DNA from: a virus
DNA: 43,609 nt
Reading direction: 5' to 3' (one strand)
IMG/VR virus record: IMGVR_UViG_3300009011_000528
Span: 1 to 43,609 of that record
The position numbers were made by a program, and so were the translations under genes. A model generated the notes under the pieces. The model saw nothing but the letters and a program-made list of their open reading frames with translations. It was not told the origin of the DNA and ran no database searches. The stretch's first letter is position 1. Every line of letters begins with the position of its first letter. Positions 4,113 through 43,609 of this stretch are shown piece by piece.

Positions 4113-4580
4113 TTAATACTCCGGTAAATCTCGGTTAACCACCTCATCAATGATCCCCCACTGGTTCGGCGGTAGCTCAACAATGACGTCTGAGAATTCA
4201 TCATCCGGGTTGTAAACCTTCCGGGTGATAACGTTACCCGTCCAGGTCGTCGTATTGCCGTTGATGCTTGTCTGTACTGGCGGGGCCACAAAATGCAGCT
4301 CCTGCATCTGCAAACCAGAACCACCCAGATTGCACAGCATGCTGAACCACTGGTTGCCGTTATCGAGATAGCGCGGGCTGCGATACCACTGCTCAAATGC
4401 TCGGTCTTCCTGCAGCGTGAAAATCCAGTTCAGTGACCAGGTGGTTTTAAGGTCATCGGTCAGCCGCTGGAAGATGGGCGCACCAACTGCAGGTTGATCG
4501 GTGCGAAACCCCGCATCAATCGTGCGGCTCTTGTTGGCCTTCTGAGGAAGGGATAGCCAGTCGGGATAAGGTATTGGCAC
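4113..4580 (-). CDS. Conserved minor tail protein
   Basis: This 155-aa product (PYPDWLSLPQKANKS..., ending RDLPEY) is of the kind found next to DUF1833 genes in enterobacterial prophages and occupies the position of lambda M. It has several Trp-rich strands and no catalytic motif. An intrinsic terminator lies just upstream, between this gene and the Ntn-hydrolase-like gene. Function as a tail-tip component is inferred from synteny. Confidence 0.75.
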   Translation of the reverse strand: MPIPYPDWLSLPQKANKSRTIDAGFRTDQPAVGAPIFQRLTDDLKTTWSLNWIFTLQEDRAFEQWYRSPRYLDNGNQWFSMLCNLGGSGLQMQELHFVAPPVQTSINGNTTTWTGNVITRKVYNPDDEFSDVIVELPPNQWGIIDEVVNRDLPEY

Positions 4581-4601
4581 GGTTTTCTCCCGGTAATAAA
4601 A

Positions 4602-4619
4602 AACCCGCCGAAGCGGGTT
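4602..4619 (-). terminator. Intrinsic terminator inside the tail operon
   Basis: Read leftward this is a GC-rich stem AACCCGC-TTCG-GCGGGTT followed by a T-run. It overlaps the stop codon of the 207-aa gene and ends about 20 nt before the next start. It would be polar unless polymerase is antiterminated by Q. Confidence 0.75.
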
Positions 4620-5241
4620 ATTGTAAGAGTTGGTCTAGTTGGTGCCGATAATCATCGAACTCACCAATTTTCATTTGCCTGCACTCGTTGGCAGTAAGCA
4701 CCATTGCATGCATTTCACCGCCAATATAAACACGAGACTCACTTGGCAACGCCTCTTGCATTGCGCGTTGCTGCCTCATCATTTGCGGAAATGCTTCATC
4801 TAAATTACCAACAATAATGTCACATGCAGGCTTGGCGAATGTCCCATAATCCAGCTCGTCAGGAGAAAATCCATTTGATGAGCGATAAGCAAAGCCTTTG
4901 ATGCGCTGATCTTCGGAGGAATACCCAAACTGATAAATTGTTGTCGTCAAGTCATCTTGTAACTCGAACCTTAATTTAAACTCTGACCATAGCCGAGCAA
5001 GGTTCTGTTGCGTGTGTATATTCAAGTGCTCGACATCGAGCAGAACCATTTCATTACTTACAAAACGGGCCCACTCTGACGAAAACCTACCAATGCCAGT
5101 TCCGGCGATAATCGTTTTTAAAGTTGGGATGTACGAGGCTTTATTGGTAAAGATAAAAGGACTCCCTTCTTCATCTACAGCCAGGGTGTCTGTAACAACA
5201 ATTGCCATGTCTTTGTGAAGATAAAAGATTAGTGATGACAT
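4618..5241 (-). CDS. Putative proteasome/HslV-like Ntn hydrolase in the tail cluster
   Basis: I know of no named function for this 207-aa protein. After removal of the initiator Met (Ser follows, so methionine aminopeptidase should act), residue 1 is Ser, residue 17 is Asp (IVVTDT), residue 33 is Lys (FTNKAS), and an Ala-Gly pair sits at 45-46 (IIAGTG). In 20S and HslV beta subunits the catalytic set is Thr1, Asp17, Lys33 with an AG(G) turn near 46-47, so spacing and strand pattern coincide. This suggests an N-terminal-nucleophile hydrolase with Ser in place of Thr. It starts 2 nt after the tape-measure stop and ends in a terminator, which could mark an inserted cassette. Substrate and role are unknown; it could be a morphogenetic protease or an accessory gene. 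The protein is certain as a gene; the fold is inferred. Confidence 0.8.
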   Translation of the reverse strand: MSSLIFYLHKDMAIVVTDTLAVDEEGSPFIFTNKASYIPTLKTIIAGTGIGRFSSEWARFVSNEMVLLDVEHLNIHTQQNLARLWSEFKLRFELQDDLTTTIYQFGYSSEDQRIKGFAYRSSNGFSPDELDYGTFAKPACDIIVGNLDEAFPQMMRQQRAMQEALPSESRVYIGGEMHAMVLTANECRQMKIGEFDDYRHQLDQLLQ

Positions 5242-5243
5242 TA

Positions 5244-8200
5244 TTACTCCGTCGCTCGGCGTGGTGCCTGATGATATTGAGATAGCCCTTGGCTAATTTG
5301 CCCACCCTGTTGCAAATCAGCAAGTACAATTCGCGTTACCTCTCGACCATCTACCCCTGTGCTGGTTTGGGTATCTTGAACGCCAGCTCCTGAAGAATAG
5401 TTCTCTATTATAATTGTCGTCCCACCGCCCCCACCAGAATTAATCTGCTTGTTACTTAGGACATTCCCGCCACCATCACCAGGCAGAAGGTAATTCCTCC
5501 CATTACTAGACTGAAGTATCTCCGGCTTGCCACCTTCCCCAATTTGGTACATTCCACCAGCAGACACGGGCCCGCCATTCTTGCGCTTACCAGATAACGT
5601 CTTGGACAGCGCAAAGGCACCCACCAGCGCAGCACCACCAATGATTGCAGCAGCACCAAACGATCCAACAGAAGCCACCAGCGCAGCCGGTAACCATGCC
5701 GCCATTGTCGTGCCTGCTGATGTAACACTTGCTGCTGTAGTGGTACCCAAGGCTCCTACTTGCGTTGCAGTAGTGGCGGCAATAGCAGATTGCTGAACAG
5801 ATGCGCCCATGATGGCTGATTTAGCCTGCTGCAAACCCATTTCTACGAATGTCTGAATGACACTACTCAGGACGGTATCAGCAAGCCCTCTCATTGCATC
5901 TGAGGCTGATTGCGTACCGGTGATGATGCCGGATAGCGCCGAACTAGCGCCTTGCCCAAACGAGTCAACAGCAGCTCCGAGAGCCTCATAGCCAACACTC
6001 TGCTGAGTGAACAGCGCCCACTGAGCATCGGTGCGAGCCTTCTCATATTCCATATTGGCAGCATTCATTAACGCTAAACCATTGGCCGTAATTACCCCTT
6101 TCTGGGTTTCAAATTGCTGAATTAAAGCCAACTTTTTAGCATGCTCATTGGCTAGTGCCTGTACAGGATCAACACTGCCTTGCGCCTCTTGTGCTGGAGA
6201 AACTAACGCATTAGCGTTGGCATGCGCGATTGCATTTTTATGGTCTTGGGCAAGCTTCAGGGAATCTTTGTTGTATTGCTGTTGGTCAATAATTCCCTCG
6301 TCATATTGGCGCTTCAATTGCTTGGTAGCGTCTGAATATGCTTTGTCTGCGTTGCGTACCGGATCAGCAGCAATGGCATCGTTTAAATCCTGCTGCTTCT
6401 GCTTGGCATCAAATAATGACCCGGCAAGTTGACCAATTTCATTCTTTTGCGCCTCGGTGGCTTTGGCTCCTGCTGCCGCCACTGCGTTATAAACAGCGGC
6501 TTCTCGGCTGTTATCGTCATAGCTAAGGTTCAAATACTGGAGCTGACGTTGAAGGTCTGCGATTTTCTGTGCGCCTTCGTCTGCTGTTTTTGCCCCAGCC
6601 TTAGCCCCTTTGTTTCGCGCCGCCTCCGCTTGCTGCAGGTCATAGTTAGCCCCCGCAAGTTCGCCGAGTTGATTGATGACATTCTGATTACCCTCCCCAG
6701 CATTTATCGCTTCAAGTCGAGCTGCTTTTACTGCTCGCTGCCGCTTGTCGGTTATCTGGAGTAATTCATTCTCCTGAGTCAATTGGTCAAGCTGCTTTTG
6801 CCCTGCGGAAGTAACCCCGACCATCAAGCTCTGAGAGTTGAAATTATCTTTAGCTTTAGCTGCAATGTTTAGAGCATCGCCAAATTGGTTAATCAGTCCG
6901 GCTGCGACTCCTGCTGCTTGCCCGTCTCGTCTAAGTAGATCAATGCCCTGAACAAGAGTGCCGTTCATCTGCGCCCGCAATATCCCGGCCTTACTGATTG
7001 TCTGGCTCAGTTTGCTTTGCTCTGCCTCAACTTTGGCAGTTAATTGGATGTGCTCACTTTCCAACTCACTTACTTTTGACACAGCATCTGAATAAAAAAG
7101 GCTTCCCTCGGACAAGCCTACCACCCCGGCTTTAGCACTTTGCAGCCTTGATGTAAGATCAGCCAAGCGAGCTTCGTTATTTTTGAGCTCTCCAGATTGG
7201 ACATTTATCGATTTGGCCGCCTTATCTATCTCCGCTGCCAACTGCACATTGCTCATGGTGCGCATTTTGGCAATAACGCCGTCAAGCTTGTCCGCGAAAT
7301 CAATAGATTCCTGCTTCGCCTGTTGTGCCTTTTGGTAAAAATAGAACAATGCTGCACCAGCAATCATCGCTGCGCCTGCCGGCCCACCAATTAATGACAG
7401 AGCACCTCTCGCCAATCCGCCAATAGTAGTTGTTGCCGCTGCTGCCGCAGTCGTTGCTGTCTTGGTTGCCGCCGCCTGTGCTAATTGTGCCTCGGCAAAT
7501 ACTGCTGATCGTTGAATAGCAACCGACTTAGCTGTATTGAGATTTTGCAACGCGAAAGCTTCAGCGTTCGTCCCCTTGGCAACGTTGTATTCTGCTTGTG
7601 CCAGTGCAAGAGACGATAATGCAGCCTCTTTATCTAACAATGCCTTTCTTGCCGTTACCGCCGCAGCATTCGCTGCAGCCGCTGCGTCAGCAGCTACTGC
7701 AGAAGCGTGAGCCTGAGAAGCAAGCATGTCGCTAACCTTTGCCTGCGTAGCCATCGCCAAGGAGCCAACATATCGCCCGCCGAGTACGACAGCAAAAGCC
7801 GTGACCACACCAGCAGCAACATCAACATTTTCACTTAAAGAGACAACAGCATCATTGAATACCTTCAAACCTGACTGAACAGAGGTAGATTCACCGATGA
7901 ATTTAGTGATGTTGTTCCCGGCGATCTGGAATGCCTGGCCCATAGTTTGGATCGTGTTCCCGAACTCTTTGGCAATCACATCACCTTGGCTCAGCAACCC
8001 TTTCACAACAACATCGGTAGTCAGCTTTCCTTCTGCTGCCATGGCGCGGAGCTGACCTACCGTTACGCCCAGGGAGTCAGCCAGTGCTACCGCTAGGCGC
8101 GATCCGTTCTCTGAGATTGAGTTGAACTCTTCACCACGCAGCACACCGGAGGCGAGCGCTTGTGACAGTTGGATCATGGTCGAGCTAGCTTCCTCTGCCG

Positions 8201-8663
8201 TTGCACCAGAAACCACCAGCCCCTTGTTAATTGTCGTTGTCAGTTTTGCAAGGTCTTCGGTACTGGTTCCCGCGCTGCGCGTTGCGCGCTCAAGTCGACC
8301 ATAAAGCGTTGCTGTGGACTCAAGCCCGGAACGTGTCTCTTGGGAGATGTCAAAAACCCGCTGCGTTACATCCGCCAACTGCTCTGTTGGCCTTACGGCG
8401 TTTACCAGCTTGTTGTTCACATCTACCCAGGCATTGGCATACTGAGCAACCTGTTGGACTGACAGCGCGGCGGTTAGACTTGCAGCTACACGAGACAGGG
8501 ATAGGAATGATTTTTCGGCAACACCAACTGACTTCCCTGTAGCAAGGAATCGCCCCTCCATTTCATCAAGGTTAGCGTTAATTTTTCGCTGGCCCACCAG
8601 CAAAGCCTGAGACTCAAGCTCCACCTGGTAGACAATGCTGCCTTCGTTGGTTCCACTCGCCAT
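5244..8663 (-). CDS. Tail tape measure protein
   Basis: The 1,139-aa protein is the longest in the window. It has the conserved tape-measure domain near residues 60-270 (YANAWVDVNNKL, SGATAEEASSTMIQLSQALASG, GEEFNSISENG). Long Ala/Gln-rich coiled coil follows, with hydrophobic helices near residues 415-445 (GGPAGAAMIAGAALFYFY) and 1000-1035, and a C-terminal GGPVSAGGMYQIGEGGKPE-type motif seen in lambda-like tape measures. It sets tail length and is injected or forms a channel during DNA entry. An intrinsic terminator and a block of non-structural genes separate it from the tail chaperone gene. Confidence 0.95.
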   Translation of the reverse strand: MASGTNEGSIVYQVELESQALLVGQRKINANLDEMEGRFLATGKSVGVAEKSFLSLSRVAASLTAALSVQQVAQYANAWVDVNNKLVNAVRPTEQLADVTQRVFDISQETRSGLESTATLYGRLERATRSAGTSTEDLAKLTTTINKGLVVSGATAEEASSTMIQLSQALASGVLRGEEFNSISENGSRLAVALADSLGVTVGQLRAMAAEGKLTTDVVVKGLLSQGDVIAKEFGNTIQTMGQAFQIAGNNITKFIGESTSVQSGLKVFNDAVVSLSENVDVAAGVVTAFAVVLGGRYVGSLAMATQAKVSDMLASQAHASAVAADAAAAANAAAVTARKALLDKEAALSSLALAQAEYNVAKGTNAEAFALQNLNTAKSVAIQRSAVFAEAQLAQAAATKTATTAAAAATTTIGGLARGALSLIGGPAGAAMIAGAALFYFYQKAQQAKQESIDFADKLDGVIAKMRTMSNVQLAAEIDKAAKSINVQSGELKNNEARLADLTSRLQSAKAGVVGLSEGSLFYSDAVSKVSELESEHIQLTAKVEAEQSKLSQTISKAGILRAQMNGTLVQGIDLLRRDGQAAGVAAGLINQFGDALNIAAKAKDNFNSQSLMVGVTSAGQKQLDQLTQENELLQITDKRQRAVKAARLEAINAGEGNQNVINQLGELAGANYDLQQAEAARNKGAKAGAKTADEGAQKIADLQRQLQYLNLSYDDNSREAAVYNAVAAAGAKATEAQKNEIGQLAGSLFDAKQKQQDLNDAIAADPVRNADKAYSDATKQLKRQYDEGIIDQQQYNKDSLKLAQDHKNAIAHANANALVSPAQEAQGSVDPVQALANEHAKKLALIQQFETQKGVITANGLALMNAANMEYEKARTDAQWALFTQQSVGYEALGAAVDSFGQGASSALSGIITGTQSASDAMRGLADTVLSSVIQTFVEMGLQQAKSAIMGASVQQSAIAATTATQVGALGTTTAASVTSAGTTMAAWLPAALVASVGSFGAAAIIGGAALVGAFALSKTLSGKRKNGGPVSAGGMYQIGEGGKPEILQSSNGRNYLLPGDGGGNVLSNKQINSGGGGGTTIIIENYSSGAGVQDTQTSTGVDGREVTRIVLADLQQGGQISQGLSQYHQAPRRATE

Positions 8664-8726: not shown

Positions 8727-9161
8727 TTATCTACCTATCACAATCACCACTGCAATAAATAGGACTGCCACCGCAAATACGACTGTTAAAATAACTTTAT
8801 TGCTAACAGATGATTTGTTTTCTGCGTCTTTCACCTGTTGCAACCTGCTTTCCGCGGTGACCACATCAATGACATTAAGAGCGTGTGCAACTCTTTCCTC
8901 AGTAAAGACATCTGAAATAGCCTTGGCTAGCGAACTGTCCTTGATAACGATAGGGTTAAGTAACTCTACCGATGCATCAGCCACATCAAGTTCAGCTTGG
9001 TGCTTGTTGCCACCAGAAGATACTGTTTCACGGTAAAAACAGTTTTCTTGATCCACAAGATTTCTAATGGCCGCTCTGTTAGGTTTGAAGGTCTCTCCAC
9101 CGTCTTGTATTTCTACAAAATACAAATCATCTGAACTTCCTTCATAATGAAAAGCCATCAC
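8727..9161 (-). CDS. Hypothetical C-tail-anchored membrane protein
   Basis: I do not recognise this 144-aa protein. Its first 110 residues are soluble and charged, and residues about 120-142 form one hydrophobic segment (VILTVVFAVAVLFIAVVIVIG) ending two residues before the C-terminus, a tail-anchor arrangement. It sits 9 nt after the lipoprotein gene and is followed by a terminator. Lying between the tail chaperone and tape measure, it is more likely a lysogenic accessory (moron) protein than a virion part. Met2 is an alternative start. Confidence 0.7.
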   Translation of the reverse strand: MMAFHYEGSSDDLYFVEIQDGGETFKPNRAAIRNLVDQENCFYRETVSSGGNKHQAELDVADASVELLNPIVIKDSSLAKAISDVFTEERVAHALNVIDVVTAESRLQQVKDAENKSSVSNKVILTVVFAVAVLFIAVVIVIGR

Positions 9162-9170
9162 ACGTCCCCA

Positions 9171-9551
9171 TCAATCAGCCCAGCCAGATTTAGTCTCTAT
9201 AGCTGACTCAGACATGGTGTACTTCTCAACCACATCGCCATTAAAGAGAATAGTCAGCTCTTTCTTGGTGCCATTGGTGCCGTTATGGAACAGGCCATAG
9301 AACGGGATGAATGTTTTACCGCTTACTTTTACCTTGGCATGCACATATTTCCAGATCTCTTTCCCGCCATCGGTGAAGCTCACACTATCCGGGGATCCCA
9401 GCATTGTCTTTAGTTGGGCTTTGGTAGTCACGCCCTCTTTGATTTTGCTTTGCATGCTAACTTCTGTTTCTTTCTGCAGATTTTTATTTCCTGACGAGGC
9501 ACACCCTGCCAGCAAAAAGGCCACCATAGCGGCGACAACAATCTTTTTCAT
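9171..9551 (-). CDS. Lipoprotein with BamE/SmpA-like domain
   Basis: The 126-aa product starts with a lipoprotein signal (MKKIVVAAMVAFLLAGC), with lipobox LAGC and Cys at residue 17, so it should be lipidated. The rest has the BamE/OmlA pattern: VTTKAQLKTMLGSPDSVSFTDGGKEIWKY. Phage-encoded lipoproteins in this position often alter the lysogen surface or block superinfection, but that is inference here. A promoter-like sequence (9589-9616), a good AAGGA ribosome site and an upstream terminator suggest independent expression. Confidence 0.82.
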   Translation of the reverse strand: MKKIVVAAMVAFLLAGCASSGNKNLQKETEVSMQSKIKEGVTTKAQLKTMLGSPDSVSFTDGGKEIWKYVHAKVKVSGKTFIPFYGLFHNGTNGTKKELTILFNGDVVEKYTMSESAIETKSGWAD

Positions 9552-9588
9552 TTAGTCCTTTTCCCATAGACAAGTAACAAGTCGTTAC

Positions 9589-9616
9589 ATGGTAGCAGAG
9601 GGCGCGGCGGTGGCAA
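9589..9616 (-). promoter_or_regulatory. Candidate promoter for the lipoprotein gene
   Basis: Leftward: -35 TTGCCA (9611-9616), 16-bp spacer, extended -10 TGCTACCAT (hexamer 9589-9594). It lies just after a terminator and about 40 nt before the lipoprotein ATG, the usual layout of a moron promoter. Confidence 0.45.
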
Positions 9617-9643
9617 CGAAAACGAGGGGCCAGAAAGCAAAAG

Positions 9644-9659
9644 CCCACCTCAGGGTGGG
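9644..9659 (-). terminator. Intrinsic terminator after the 276-aa membrane protein gene
   Basis: Leftward: CCCACC-CTGA-GGTGGG followed by CTTTTGCTTT. It is located between the stop of the 276-aa gene and the lipoprotein promoter. Confidence 0.6.
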
Positions 9660-9673
9660 TTCTGCTTGCATCA

Positions 9674-10504
9674 TCAAACTCTTGAAGCTCTGGGCTTAAA
9701 CCTGCGCTGTTTTTTTTCTTCTTTCTCTTCCAGTTCTTTAAACCGGTTATAGGTCTGAAAATCAAAGAATGACAGGTTTTCGATTTCAGACACGGGGCAA
9801 ACAACCCTAAAATCATTGAGCGTTAAATTACTATCAATCTTCGGCGGGCCTTCCACGCCAGCAATATCACCGAATAATCCTATGCTTTCATAGTGAGTAT
9901 CATAATTAGTGGTCACCACAATTTTCAGTGTGTCTTTATCCCGATACCCGCTGAGTAAAGGGATGAAGGCCATATGCTCAATCTTCCCATGTTCCAGCGG
10001 CGGTCGGATTACCCAACCGACATAAAACTTTTTTGATTTTAAAGTAAAGATAACTGGAGCCAAGGTTGCAGAAGCTTCGATAGCCAAGGTTTCTAAGGGG
10101 TGATTTTTAGCTGCCTTGGCAAGGGCTTTAAACCGGTGGTCACTGCATGCATGCCAAGCCTTATTCAGAAGACCACAAACTGTAGCAAGCACTACCGTCC
10201 CAACGATCCATAGAGCAATCTTTAAGCTTTTACCTGTGGCAACTGCATCCGCAGAAAGCGGGATAAGCATTTTGACATTATTTTTATTGATCCCTGCGGC
10301 ATGAGCAAAGAAGTCGATTAGCCCCACAAACCCCATGATCGAACATATCATCCAACTCAGAATGCAGAAGCCAGTTCCCCACGTTGCCACATAAAAGTAA
10401 GCGCCCCAACCATCGGAGCGCTTAAATTTGTATCTAGAGGATACTGAAGTAATCGTGAAGATGTAGCCACTAACTAGAATGGCTGATAATAACAGTGTCC
10501 CCAT
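9674..10504 (-). CDS. Hypothetical inner-membrane protein with cytoplasmic C-terminal domain
   Basis: I do not recognise this 276-aa protein. Residues about 3-22, 40-65 and 92-113 are hydrophobic and probably membrane-spanning; the rest (about 115-276) is a soluble domain ending in a very basic Lys/Arg/Glu-rich tail. It lies 3 nt downstream of the 69-aa gene, forming a two-gene unit with its own upstream control region and a terminator. The setting, between two tail genes, suggests a lysogenic conversion or exclusion function, which is inference. Confidence 0.7.
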   Translation of the reverse strand: MGTLLLSAILVSGYIFTITSVSSRYKFKRSDGWGAYFYVATWGTGFCILSWMICSIMGFVGLIDFFAHAAGINKNNVKMLIPLSADAVATGKSLKIALWIVGTVVLATVCGLLNKAWHACSDHRFKALAKAAKNHPLETLAIEASATLAPVIFTLKSKKFYVGWVIRPPLEHGKIEHMAFIPLLSGYRDKDTLKIVVTTNYDTHYESIGLFGDIAGVEGPPKIDSNLTLNDFRVVCPVSEIENLSFFDFQTYNRFKELEEKEEKKQRRFKPRASRV

Positions 10505-25637: not shown

Positions 25638-26342
25638 TTAATTATGCGCATTTGAAGTTACTCTACCCAGCACACCCTCAGCAGCCTCGGCGTCCTGGTA
25701 GCACTTACTGATCAGCATCTGATAGAAGCGCTGCCAGTTCCTGCTCCATGTCGGCTGACTCAGGTCAGGTATTAATCCCTTCACCACTTTGTAAGCCGGG
25801 GCTGTCGTGGTTGGCTTCAATCCTGTTCCGTGGCATCTACTGCAGGTTTTTTCTACGGCCTTGCCGCCTGCCTTTGTGGCCGCTATGTCGTATACCTTTC
25901 CACTACCGCCACATCTACACCTGGCCCGCTCAATGTCTGCCGTTCTACAGAAGTCATCCACTGCCAGTTTCGAAAGCAACACCATGCAGCGTGCCATTTG
26001 CCTGCCAGCTGCTTTACCCACCAGCTTTGGTGACTGCTTAATCGCGTACTGAGCCAACCTCTCTATGGCTTTCTCTCTCTCTGATTTATCTTTATTAAAT
26101 TTTGCATAGAGAAGACTGAGCCCCTGCGCCTCTCTGGACTGAGTGATCCCCAATGCAACCATGACATCGGTATAACCACCCTGCCCGCCGCCTTGGCATT
26201 GAGAAGCGCGAACTATTCGTCGTTCCTGTTGTACGCCATCCTGACCAATCAGCATTTTGGATTGAGGCTTAATATCAGGCGCGGTACTCATGATTGAAGG
26301 AGATTTTGGGCTGCTGGCTAAAAGTGCGTGCTCTATTCTCAT
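25638..26342 (-). CDS. Q: Late antitermination protein Q (phage 82 type)
   Basis: Started at Met 26342, which gives an ATGA overlap with rusA, the product is 234 aa. It matches the Q family: YTDVMVALGITQSREAQGLSLLYAK, then a zinc motif CRCGGSG...CSRCHGTG, and the C-terminal VVKGLIPDLSQPTWSRNWQRFY with KCYQDAEAAE. Q binds near the late promoter and converts RNA polymerase to a terminator-resistant form, which this late operon needs given its many terminators. It is the last gene of the early leftward operon. Confidence 0.9.
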   Translation of the reverse strand: MRIEHALLASSPKSPSIMSTAPDIKPQSKMLIGQDGVQQERRIVRASQCQGGGQGGYTDVMVALGITQSREAQGLSLLYAKFNKDKSEREKAIERLAQYAIKQSPKLVGKAAGRQMARCMVLLSKLAVDDFCRTADIERARCRCGGSGKVYDIAATKAGGKAVEKTCSRCHGTGLKPTTTAPAYKVVKGLIPDLSQPTWSRNWQRFYQMLISKCYQDAEAAEGVLGRVTSNAHN

Positions 26343-26695
26343 GCTATTTCTCCGATAATTATTTGGCCTACTTCGCCCCAAATCTTTGTTACTCGACCGT
26401 CCCAGATCCGGCAGTCGTCCTCAAAAATGGCATCCAATAACGCCTTTTCCAGATTGTCTTTATCTGGCTTCTGCTGATGTGGCTTACCGGCCATCTCAGC
26501 GCGTTTCTTCTTGCTCCAGCTGTCTGGCATGGGTAATACAAAAGTCACGTGATAGCCGCTCTCAGGCAGTGAGATGCGATGTAATCTCACCTCGTCGCAG
26601 AATGCCCGGTAGCGGAGAACTGGCGGGCGCTTGGCCCACCGATCTTTTTGCGTTTGACGTGGCTTGGGGATCGGAACGATGTTGTAACTCTTCAT
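26339..26695 (-). CDS. rusA: RusA-family Holliday junction resolvase
   Basis: The 118-aa protein has the RusA signature KPDKDNLEKALLDAIFEDD (residues 76-94), with the metal-binding Asp residues (78, 80, 93/94) and a later Lys104. It cuts four-way junctions during recombination-dependent replication or packaging. ATGA overlaps join it to both the DUF968 gene and Q. Confidence 0.93.
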   Translation of the reverse strand: MKSYNIVPIPKPRQTQKDRWAKRPPVLRYRAFCDEVRLHRISLPESGYHVTFVLPMPDSWSKKKRAEMAGKPHQQKPDKDNLEKALLDAIFEDDCRIWDGRVTKIWGEVGQIIIGEIA

Positions 26696-31654: not shown

Positions 31655-32428
31655 ATGGTTAAAAAAGACGAACTGAAAGAGAAATTCACAGAACGCTTGC
31701 GCGCTGCTTGTTTAGAAGCTGGCGTAGGTGGTCGTGGGCTTCCGAAACGTATGAAGGACGCCCTATCTAAACAGGGTATTTCCATCACTGAGCCCGGCAT
31801 CTGGAAATGGATGAATGCAGCAGCCATACCTGACTCGGTTAACATCCTTGCGTTAAGTCGTTGGCTACGAGTTCGCCCTGAATGGTTAGAGTACGGGCGC
31901 GGTGAAATGAAAGAGAATGTCTCCGGTGTTCAAAAACAAGAGTCAAATGTCCCACCTCAAGAAGAGTGGGATAGCGTTGACGCCTGGGATAGCACTACCC
32001 CTCTACCACAGGATGAGGTTGAGGTTCCTTTTTTGCGAGACATTGAACTCGCCGCTGGGGATGGAAGTTTTAACGAAGAAGACTACAACGGGTTTAAATT
32101 GAGATTCTCCAAAGCCACGCTGCGCCGTATTGGCGCAAGTACAGATGGTTCAGGAGTGCTCTGTTTCCCTGCTCGCGGTAATAGCATGGAGCCTAACATT
32201 CCCGATGGATCAACTGTCGCAGTAAACACGGACGACAAAAAGATCGTGGACGGGAAAGTTTATGCAATTAACCAAGATGGATGGAAGCGGCTAAAAATCC
32301 TTTACAGAGTGGGACCAAATCGACTCAGCATCAGGAGCTTCAATACTGCTGAACACCCTGATGAAGAAGCTGATCTGGATAAAATAGAAATTATCGGTCG
32401 CCTATTCTGGACATCGACTATCTGGTAA
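31655..32428 (+). CDS. cI: CI-type prophage repressor, S24 self-cleaving
   Basis: The 257-aa repressor has an N-terminal DNA-binding domain (about 1-85) with an atypical helix-turn-helix (GLPKRMKDALSKQGISITEPGIWKW), a linker, and a C-terminal LexA/S24 peptidase domain. The cleavage bond is Ala134-Gly135 (ELAAGDG), the nucleophile Ser177 (RGNSMEP) and the general base Lys211 (WKRLK). RecA-stimulated self-cleavage should induce the prophage. It keeps PR and PL shut by binding the operators on both sides of its gene; a terminator follows. Confidence 0.95.
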   Translation: MVKKDELKEKFTERLRAACLEAGVGGRGLPKRMKDALSKQGISITEPGIWKWMNAAAIPDSVNILALSRWLRVRPEWLEYGRGEMKENVSGVQKQESNVPPQEEWDSVDAWDSTTPLPQDEVEVPFLRDIELAAGDGSFNEEDYNGFKLRFSKATLRRIGASTDGSGVLCFPARGNSMEPNIPDGSTVAVNTDDKKIVDGKVYAINQDGWKRLKILYRVGPNRLSIRSFNTAEHPDEEADLDKIEIIGRLFWTSTIW

Positions 32429-42260: not shown

Positions 42261-42632
42261 ATGGATAAATACAGCCTTACAAGGGATGAGGCATGCGCTT
42301 TCCTGGGAGTTTCTGCGCCAACTCTAACTGCGTGGATTCGCTCAGGAAGGCTTTCAGCCACCCGCAAAGATCCAACCAAATCAAAATCCCCTTACCTAAT
42401 AACCCGACAAGCCTGTATTGCCGCGCTTAGCATTCCGATCCACACTGTGCCGGTGAGCGCGGATGATGCACATGAGGAGAAAGCACCATGTCATTATTCC
42501 GCCGTGGAGAAATCTGGTACGGCAGTTACACGTCGCCAAGCGGCAAGCGAATTAAGGAATCGCTTGGGACTTCGGACAGACGCCAAGCGCAGGAGCTGCA
42601 CGACCGTAGAAAAGCTGAACTTTGGAGAATAG
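42261..42632 (+). CDS. AlpA/excisionase-like DNA-binding protein
   Basis: The 123-aa frame starts with a MerR/AlpA-type winged helix ([26 protein letters not shown]) followed by [21 protein letters not shown]. Position directly upstream of int suggests the recombination directionality factor. The frame runs 145 nt into int; the last 48 codons may be real or the natural stop after read-in, since the integrase frame is clearly coding there. Small excisionases are usually under 80 aa. Confidence 0.75.
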
Positions 42633-43609
42633 AGCGTTTGGGGGACTTCCCGAATGTGACATTTGAAGAGGCTTGCCTGCGCTGGTTAGAAGAAAAAGCG
42701 CACAAGAAATCACTCGATGCAGACAAGGGCCGGATTGGATTCTGGCTTATGCATTTTGAGGGGGCTTTATTGAAGGATATAACCGAGGCAAAAATCTACA
42801 CCGCAGTTAGCCGCATGACCAATAGGAAGGCAGAGGAGCGCTGGCAAATGCGTGTTGATGCAATGGCTAAGAAAGGCATTGTGATACCGCCGCGAAAATC
42901 TGAGGCCGTTTCAACTTCAACAAAGGCTAAGCACCTTGCTTTGATGAAGGCTCTTATGCGGGCTGCGGAAAGGGATTGGAAGTGGATAGAAAAGTCACCA
43001 GTGATCAAAGTGCCGCAGGAAAGAAACAAGCGAGTTCGGTGGCTCGAACCCGCTCAGGCACAACGATTAGTAGATGAGTGCCCAGAACCTCTTAAATCTA
43101 CCGTTGAATTTGCACTAACCACTGGCCTCCGTCGCTCTAACATTATCGAACTTGCCTGGTCGCAGATCGATATGCAGCGCAAGGTGGCATGGATTTATCC
43201 AGAGGATAGCAAATCGGGCCGCGCGATAGGAGTCGCTCTCAACGACACCGCCTGCGCAGTTTTACGGCGACAGATTGGCAATCATCACAGATGGGTGTTT
43301 GTGCATAAAGATCCGGTGAGAAAAATGCGAGTCGATTCTAACACTGCTTGGCGGGCAGCATTAAAACGTGCTGGCATTGACGACTTCCGTTTCCATGACC
43401 TTCGCCATACTTGGGCAAGTTGGTTAATTCAGGCCGGTGTTCCTTTATCCGCGCTGCAGGAAATGGGCGGATGGGAAAGCATTGAAATGGTTCAGCGTTA
43501 TGCGCACTTGGCACCCAATCATTTAACTGAGCATGCGAGGCAGATTGATGCGATTTTTGGAGGCTTAGTCCCAAATCTGTCCCATGTTGAAATTGAGAAG
43601 ATTGGTTGA
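42488..43609 (+). CDS. int: Tyrosine-family integrase
   Basis: The 373-aa recombinase has an N-terminal arm-binding part ([20 protein letters not shown]), a core-binding domain (about 60-170) and the catalytic domain with Arg215 (TTGLRRSN), Lys242, His303-x-x-Arg306 (FHDLRHTWA), Trp329 (GGW in place of GH) and Tyr338 ([10 protein letters not shown]). It integrates and excises the prophage. Its stop is the last codon of the window, so attP/attR should lie just outside. Confidence 0.96.

Follow-up and report, generated by a model that had tools for sequence, protein, structure and literature searches.

The window analysed here, the complete 43,609-base virus record of a temperate phage, carries among its tail genes a gene whose product is strongly predicted, from its modelled structure, to adopt the proteasome-type Ntn hydrolase fold with the catalytic triad in register. 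This gene, referred to below as the hydrolase gene, is probably a mobile accessory (moron-like) cassette for a stand-alone proteasome-fold enzyme that acts in the host cell and is not a structural part of the tail. The product is most likely a Ser/Thr-nucleophile peptidase or amidase working in the host cell.

The gene, its predicted fold and catalytic residues

The head, tail, terminase, portal and lysis genes of the window phage are read leftwards, and its head and early regions are in part similar to those of Serratia, Klebsiella and Enterobacter phages. The hydrolase gene (Table 1) starts with ATG and its sequence specifies no propeptide. It would be transcribed within the late operon, with its ribosome site lying within the last bases of the tape measure gene, and the cassette would be closed by its own terminator. 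The candidate terminator is a GC-rich hairpin that overlaps the hydrolase stop codon and stands between the hydrolase gene and the next tail gene; it is also found in the L001 phage. Its RNA fold has an energy of -14.3 kcal/mol (z -2.0), and raw pattern counts of terminator-like sites in the wider region revealed no excess over shuffles. An accessory cassette ending in its own terminator had been put forward as an alternative in an earlier note made from the sequence, and this hairpin, read from 4619 to 4602, bears it out. Such a hairpin would break the tail operon, and the Q-like antiterminator encoded by the same phage, which probably reads through it, would provide a way through.

Table 1. 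Coordinates of the hydrolase gene, its signals and other relevant genes in the window
Feature	Position	Strand	Basis
Proteasome-fold Ntn hydrolase gene, 207 aa (207 codons), phrog_13702 family	4618-5241	-	ORF, PHROG match E 2e-49, AF2 model
Ser2 codon, predicted N-terminal nucleophile after Met removal	5236-5238	-	Homologue conservation, structural alignment
Asp18 codon (Asp17 of the catalytic triad, predicted)	5188-5190	-	15/15 homologues
Lys34 codon (Lys33 of the catalytic triad, predicted)	5140-5142	-	14/15 homologues
GGAG Shine-Dalgarno inside the end of the tape measure gene, few bases 5' of ATG	5247-5250	-	Sequence ...GCGACGGAGTAATAATG
Intrinsic-terminator-like hairpin AACCCGCTTCGGCGGGTT, then T tract	4602-4619	-	Terminator scan, RNA fold
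Tail length tape measure protein, upstream neighbour	5244-8663	-	phrog_1107
Virion structural / minor tail protein, downstream neighbour	4113-4580	-	phrog_384
Q-like late antiterminator of the same phage	25638-26381	-	phrog_127, E 1.6e-41
Integrase	42488-43609		
CI-type repressor	31655-32428		
Terminase large subunit of the window phage, 493 aa	20005-21486		

An AlphaFold2 model of the window hydrolase, based on an 11-sequence alignment, was obtained with a pLDDT of 93.7 and a pTM of 0.89, and the order of its strands and helices is that of a proteasome subunit. A Foldseek search of the PDB placed 20S proteasome subunits on top (E 3.6e-9). Non-proteasome Ntn hydrolases (amidotransferases, acylases) were absent among the 50 fold matches listed. 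Using VIA-align 2, the window model aligned to 20S beta subunits with Z of 16-17.6 over ~170 residues and to Anbu with Z of 16.6, and residue 2 of the model was paired with residue 1 of the mature beta subunit in many alignment rows. A second model, that of a Lactobacillus phage member 28% identical to the window protein (pLDDT 89.7), gave Z up to 19.1 to 20S beta and 18.9 to Anbu, the models of both members aligning to 20S beta and Anbu at Z 16-19 over 160-186 residues. The alpha-beta-beta-alpha sandwich with proteasome topology, named beforehand as the structural check on the proposal, is indeed predicted. The predicted fold leaves the functional class of the enzyme (peptidase, amidase or ligase) undecided.

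The link to the proteasome is invisible to sequence alone. Searches of Pfam, NCBIfam, PADLOC and the PDB (phmmer and profile) gave no match to the hydrolase beyond chance, and PF00227 matched none of 11 members. Comparison by hhalign with five HslV proteins was not significant (E 0.35), no significant match was obtained with an Anbu-like protein identified by eye, and with VpV262 ORF47 the triad region was aligned in register without significance (E 0.044, probability 1.2%). The proposal of a proteasome/HslV-like Ntn hydrolase with a Ser nucleophile thus stands as to fold and residue register, but membership of the HslV or proteasome families by sequence does not, given the hhalign result and the absence of PF00227.

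When numbered after Met removal, the hydrolase contains Ser1, Asp17, Lys33 and Ala45-Gly46, the very register that the earlier note had described. Relatives were drawn from viral, genome, plasmid and phage collections, and residue conservation was scored over 15 members of the family whose pairwise identities fall as low as 16-17%. Counting Met, position 2 is Ser in 12 and Thr in 3 members, a chemically equivalent exchange, with no other residue; Asp18 and Gly49 are each present in 15/15, and Lys34 in 14/15, the remaining one, a MAG sequence (L021), having Gly. At residue 47, in the oxyanion-hole turn (AG), Gly is found in 11 members and Ser in 4, and Ser is compatible with the oxyanion role, as the main-chain NH is used and Gly is not required. 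At the level of aligned sequences, this register in the family exceeds chance. Met removal by itself also permits Ala, Gly, Val, Pro and Cys at position 2, and a position right after Met that is confined to Ser or Thr meets the demand of an Ntn nucleophile. Comparison of the hydrolase gene with the copy in the L001 phage gave dN 0.055 and dS 0.47 (omega ~0.12), and this purifying selection indicates that the gene is kept for function. In one IncHI2 copy (L007:5001-5636), a local frameshifted stretch was observed, with FVSKAGYIPQ changed to FCFQSRLHPQ and the catalytic Lys lost.

In the proposed mechanism, Met1 would be taken off by the host methionine aminopeptidase, and the freed alpha-amino group of Ser1 would act as the general base for its own hydroxyl with the support of Lys33 and Asp17. 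An amide or peptide bond of a cytoplasmic substrate would then be hydrolysed, as the fold and the conserved triad suggest. With a nucleophile that is only ever Ser or Thr, catalysis is easy to probe with one point mutant.

Carriage on mobile elements and possible role in the host cell

Relatives of the hydrolase, at 23-50% identity, are found on plasmids, in other phages and on a probable recombinase-encoding transposon. Family members are present in 143 plasmid records, mostly of Enterobacter IncHI2 plasmids, with further carriers being IncX7 of Yersinia ruckeri, IncC and a Paenibacillus plasmid; a Salinibacter plasmid shows a weak match. In the Lactobacillus phages Lj928 and KC5a the family member adjoins terminase genes, and on marine phage contigs it is convergent to a J-like tail gene. 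On Enterobacteriaceae chromosomes and plasmids it adjoins a tyrosine recombinase and two further genes, and this recombinase-bearing segment of at least 5.2 kb is 99.7-99.9% identical between plasmids and chromosomes and ends ~145 bp past the hydrolase stop codon. Judged by its gene content, the segment looks like a three-gene recombinase transposon with the proteasome-fold gene as cargo. Its copies (L018:1519-6783, L015:1519-6780, L003:3519-8783 and L009:1-3798) lie on plasmids of the IncHI2 and IncC groups and, in the chromosome, next to a ygiQ-like gene, and the two further ORFs have no Pfam match. Among sampled genomes, a family member was present in 1/369, 1/386 (the cyanobacterial sample), 4/295 and 1/297, the seed genome being one in each. 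As at least some of the ~140 plasmid records, mostly from Enterobacter, contain resistance genes (pK29 with CTX-M-3), a function of the family would be of practical interest.

No recurring partner genes were found across the carriers, with the exception of a PAPS-reductase-domain gene near the hydrolase both on IncHI2 and on the Paenibacillus plasmid. The two arrangements differ in gene order and spacing, and on IncHI2 this gene lies outside the shared segment. On two delta-type MAG contigs (L021 and L023), the hydrolase gene is divergent from an amidophosphoribosyltransferase-like gene, whose product is itself an Ntn enzyme, and in one of the two the catalytic Lys is lost.

That the gene is widely spread on mobile elements and has no fixed partner suggests a target in the host cytoplasm, and the carrier would benefit within the host cell, for example via action on a protein of the host or of a competing element. 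The leading specific guess for this role is defence or counter-defence, with the hydrolase cleaving a host or competing-element protein or a signalling molecule, a specific form of the host-cell explanation that we put forward tentatively, as possible and short of probable. Its carriage by phages, plasmids and a transposon-like segment together with its rarity in chromosomes argues for such a role, as do the AbiEii-like and HEPN/Toprim genes among its neighbours on the IncX7 plasmid. However, PADLOC gave no match, no partner gene is conserved across carriers, and in some carriers, namely the delta-type MAGs, the hydrolase stands beside housekeeping genes.

Relation to known proteasome-like proteins

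A total of 22 new proteasome-like clusters have been reported, some of which (PPH, AAH, CPH and a few more) are found in phages (Fuchs, Alva, Lupas 2021, PMC8665760); furthermore, RefSeq names VpV262 ORF47 'peptidase HslV family'. A phage-borne relative of the proteasome is therefore already known as a kind, and the earlier assumption that phages have no known proteins of this sort no longer holds. The family described here adds a corrected annotation, a clear mobile-element habit and a plasmid- and phage-borne branch of proteasome-like proteins.

The hydrolase shares with 20S beta the whole-chain fold (Z up to 17.6), the Ser/Thr1-Asp17-Lys33 register and the Ala-Gly oxyanion turn, but identity is ~8-16% with no profile-level sequence match, and unlike 20S beta it has no propeptide and is devoid of one helix of the H3/H4 pair. 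Anbu has the same fold (Z 16.6 for the window protein and up to 18.9 for the Lactobacillus member) and likewise no propeptide, but is 7-9% identical; its chain is longer and has a long helix at the C-terminus (PMC8665760), whereas the C-terminal helix of the hydrolase is short and its gene has no recurring partners. HslV (ClpQ) has the same fold class and triad register, without sequence similarity by hhalign. A PF00227 gene of their own is kept in 6/8 genomes that carry the hydrolase gene. VpV262 ORF47 is a phage gene with a proteasome-like fold (BFVD match), but shares 14% identity with the hydrolase and belongs to another phage group and gene neighbourhood.

Concerning the recently described clusters, PPH is likewise a phage-borne proteasome-like protein flanked by phage genes, of ~140 residues and without H2 (Fuchs et al. 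2021, PMC8665760). Membership in PPH was ruled out, as the hydrolase has 207 residues with H2 at 70-92, the window model having helices at 51-64 and 70-92. AAH and CPH, compact proteasome-like proteins in phages and several phyla, are likened to the hydrolase by description only. The name CPH implies Cyanobacteria, and this cluster was considered for its phylum spread; among the 386 cyanobacterial genomes only the seed genome contained the hydrolase family, which is not decisive. Similarly, PHD was considered for the delta-type MAG hits, and only the seed was found among 297 genomes of that phylum, again not decisive.

A further-reaching proposal, which we regard as doubtful, is that the family represents a new mobile-cargo subfamily outside the 22 clusters of 2021, PPH being the one from which its length and helix H2 set it apart. 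Such a subfamily would have been passed among phages, conjugative plasmids and a recombinase-bearing transposon across several bacterial phyla, and would need no unfoldase to act on a single specific target in element-host conflict. If one specific target is cleaved, the hydrolase would be a small unfoldase-free proteasome relative in mobile-element biology.

The helix pair H3/H4 makes the ring-to-ring contact in the 20S proteasome (Fuchs et al. 2021, PMC8665760). In the model of the Lactobacillus member two helices (139-147 and 153-170) lie between the last core strands, and in that of the window protein there is one (147-163). With one helix of the pair absent, the window protein may assemble differently, and without the H3 helix the standard double ring is less certain for it. 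In addition, among the accessory residues of 20S beta subunits (Ser129, Asp166 and Ser169), the latter two lie in a motif, D166-x-x-S169-G-G, whose spacing matches that of R170-x-x-I173-G-G in the hydrolase, which suggests, on motif spacing, that the equivalents of Asp166 and Ser169 are replaced by Arg170 and Ile173, and the active site may differ from that of the proteasome in detail. The apparent replacement of these two residues, the missing H3 helix and the loss of Lys in one member would suit a proteasome-fold protein that is inactive or repurposed for a structural or binding role, like proteasome alpha subunits. Such a role is nonetheless improbable, since no member lacks Ser/Thr2 or Asp18 and a single one lacks Lys34 despite the low pairwise identity, and the N-terminal extension of the kind seen in inactive alpha subunits is absent. 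The same counts answer the conservation check that had been set for the catalytic residues in favour of the Ntn assignment.

The tape measure junction and the terminase label

It is almost certain that the hydrolase gene is optional cargo that forms no part of the tail. Bacteriophage 15G and Salmonella phage STGO-35-1 share the flanking tail genes with the window, and in both of them the stop codon of the tape measure gene overlaps the start codon that follows (TAATG), leaving no gap. In Providencia phage PSTNGR2lys the hydrolase is absent and the tape measure and the next tail gene are 8 bases apart, and in Vi II-E1 and ASO78B the slot is occupied by another, inverted gene (KilA/amidase-like). 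These empty and otherwise filled junctions led to rejection of the tail-component reading, and with it of a conserved tail module component, the gene being missing from the same locus in the first three phages and replaced in the latter two. The GC content of the hydrolase gene is 42.9% as compared to 51-53% in the tail genes on either side.

The tail role raised in the earlier note, in which the hydrolase would be an enzyme of tail assembly or of the virion, processing a tail protein such as the tape measure or being carried in the virion, is accordingly very unlikely. The gene does directly follow the tape measure gene, within whose 3' end its ribosome site lies, and on two phage-like contigs a homologue is convergent to a J-like gene (L012) or lies beside a tape-measure-like ORF (L022). 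However, related phages with the same tail genes have a seamless junction without the hydrolase gene or an unrelated inverted gene in the same slot, its GC content is unlike that of the adjoining tail genes, and the family is mostly found outside tail operons, most relatives residing on plasmids, among the packaging genes of Lactobacillus phages or on a transposon-like segment. The junction between the tape measure and the next tail gene (window 4580-5244; L046, L047, L048, L057 and L058) can be described, for this group of enterobacterial phages, as a cargo slot that is empty or holds either an inverted KilA/amidase-like gene or the hydrolase.

In PHROGs, phrog_13702 is labelled "terminase large subunit", a label that was probably copied from Lactobacillus phage records, the GenBank products of Lj928 (L005:6001-6657) and KC5a (L008:3001-3657) being named terminase large subunit. 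That the family is what this label and these product names state can be dismissed, since its members are of 207-218 aa with a predicted proteasome-subunit fold and no ATPase or nuclease domain, by which terminase identity is ruled out, and the window encodes a separate terminase large subunit. The family has thus been missed by Pfam and NCBIfam and misnamed in PHROGs and several Lactobacillus phage records, which the structure-based call mends.

AT-rich genes also occur upstream of the tape measure gene, where an accessory ORF cluster with GC of 41-46% (window 8727-10504) includes a lipoprotein-like ORF (9171-9551) and may represent further cargo. The tape measure gene itself exhibits mosaicism, as its 3' part is ~91% alike to that of the L001 phage and its 5' part is different.
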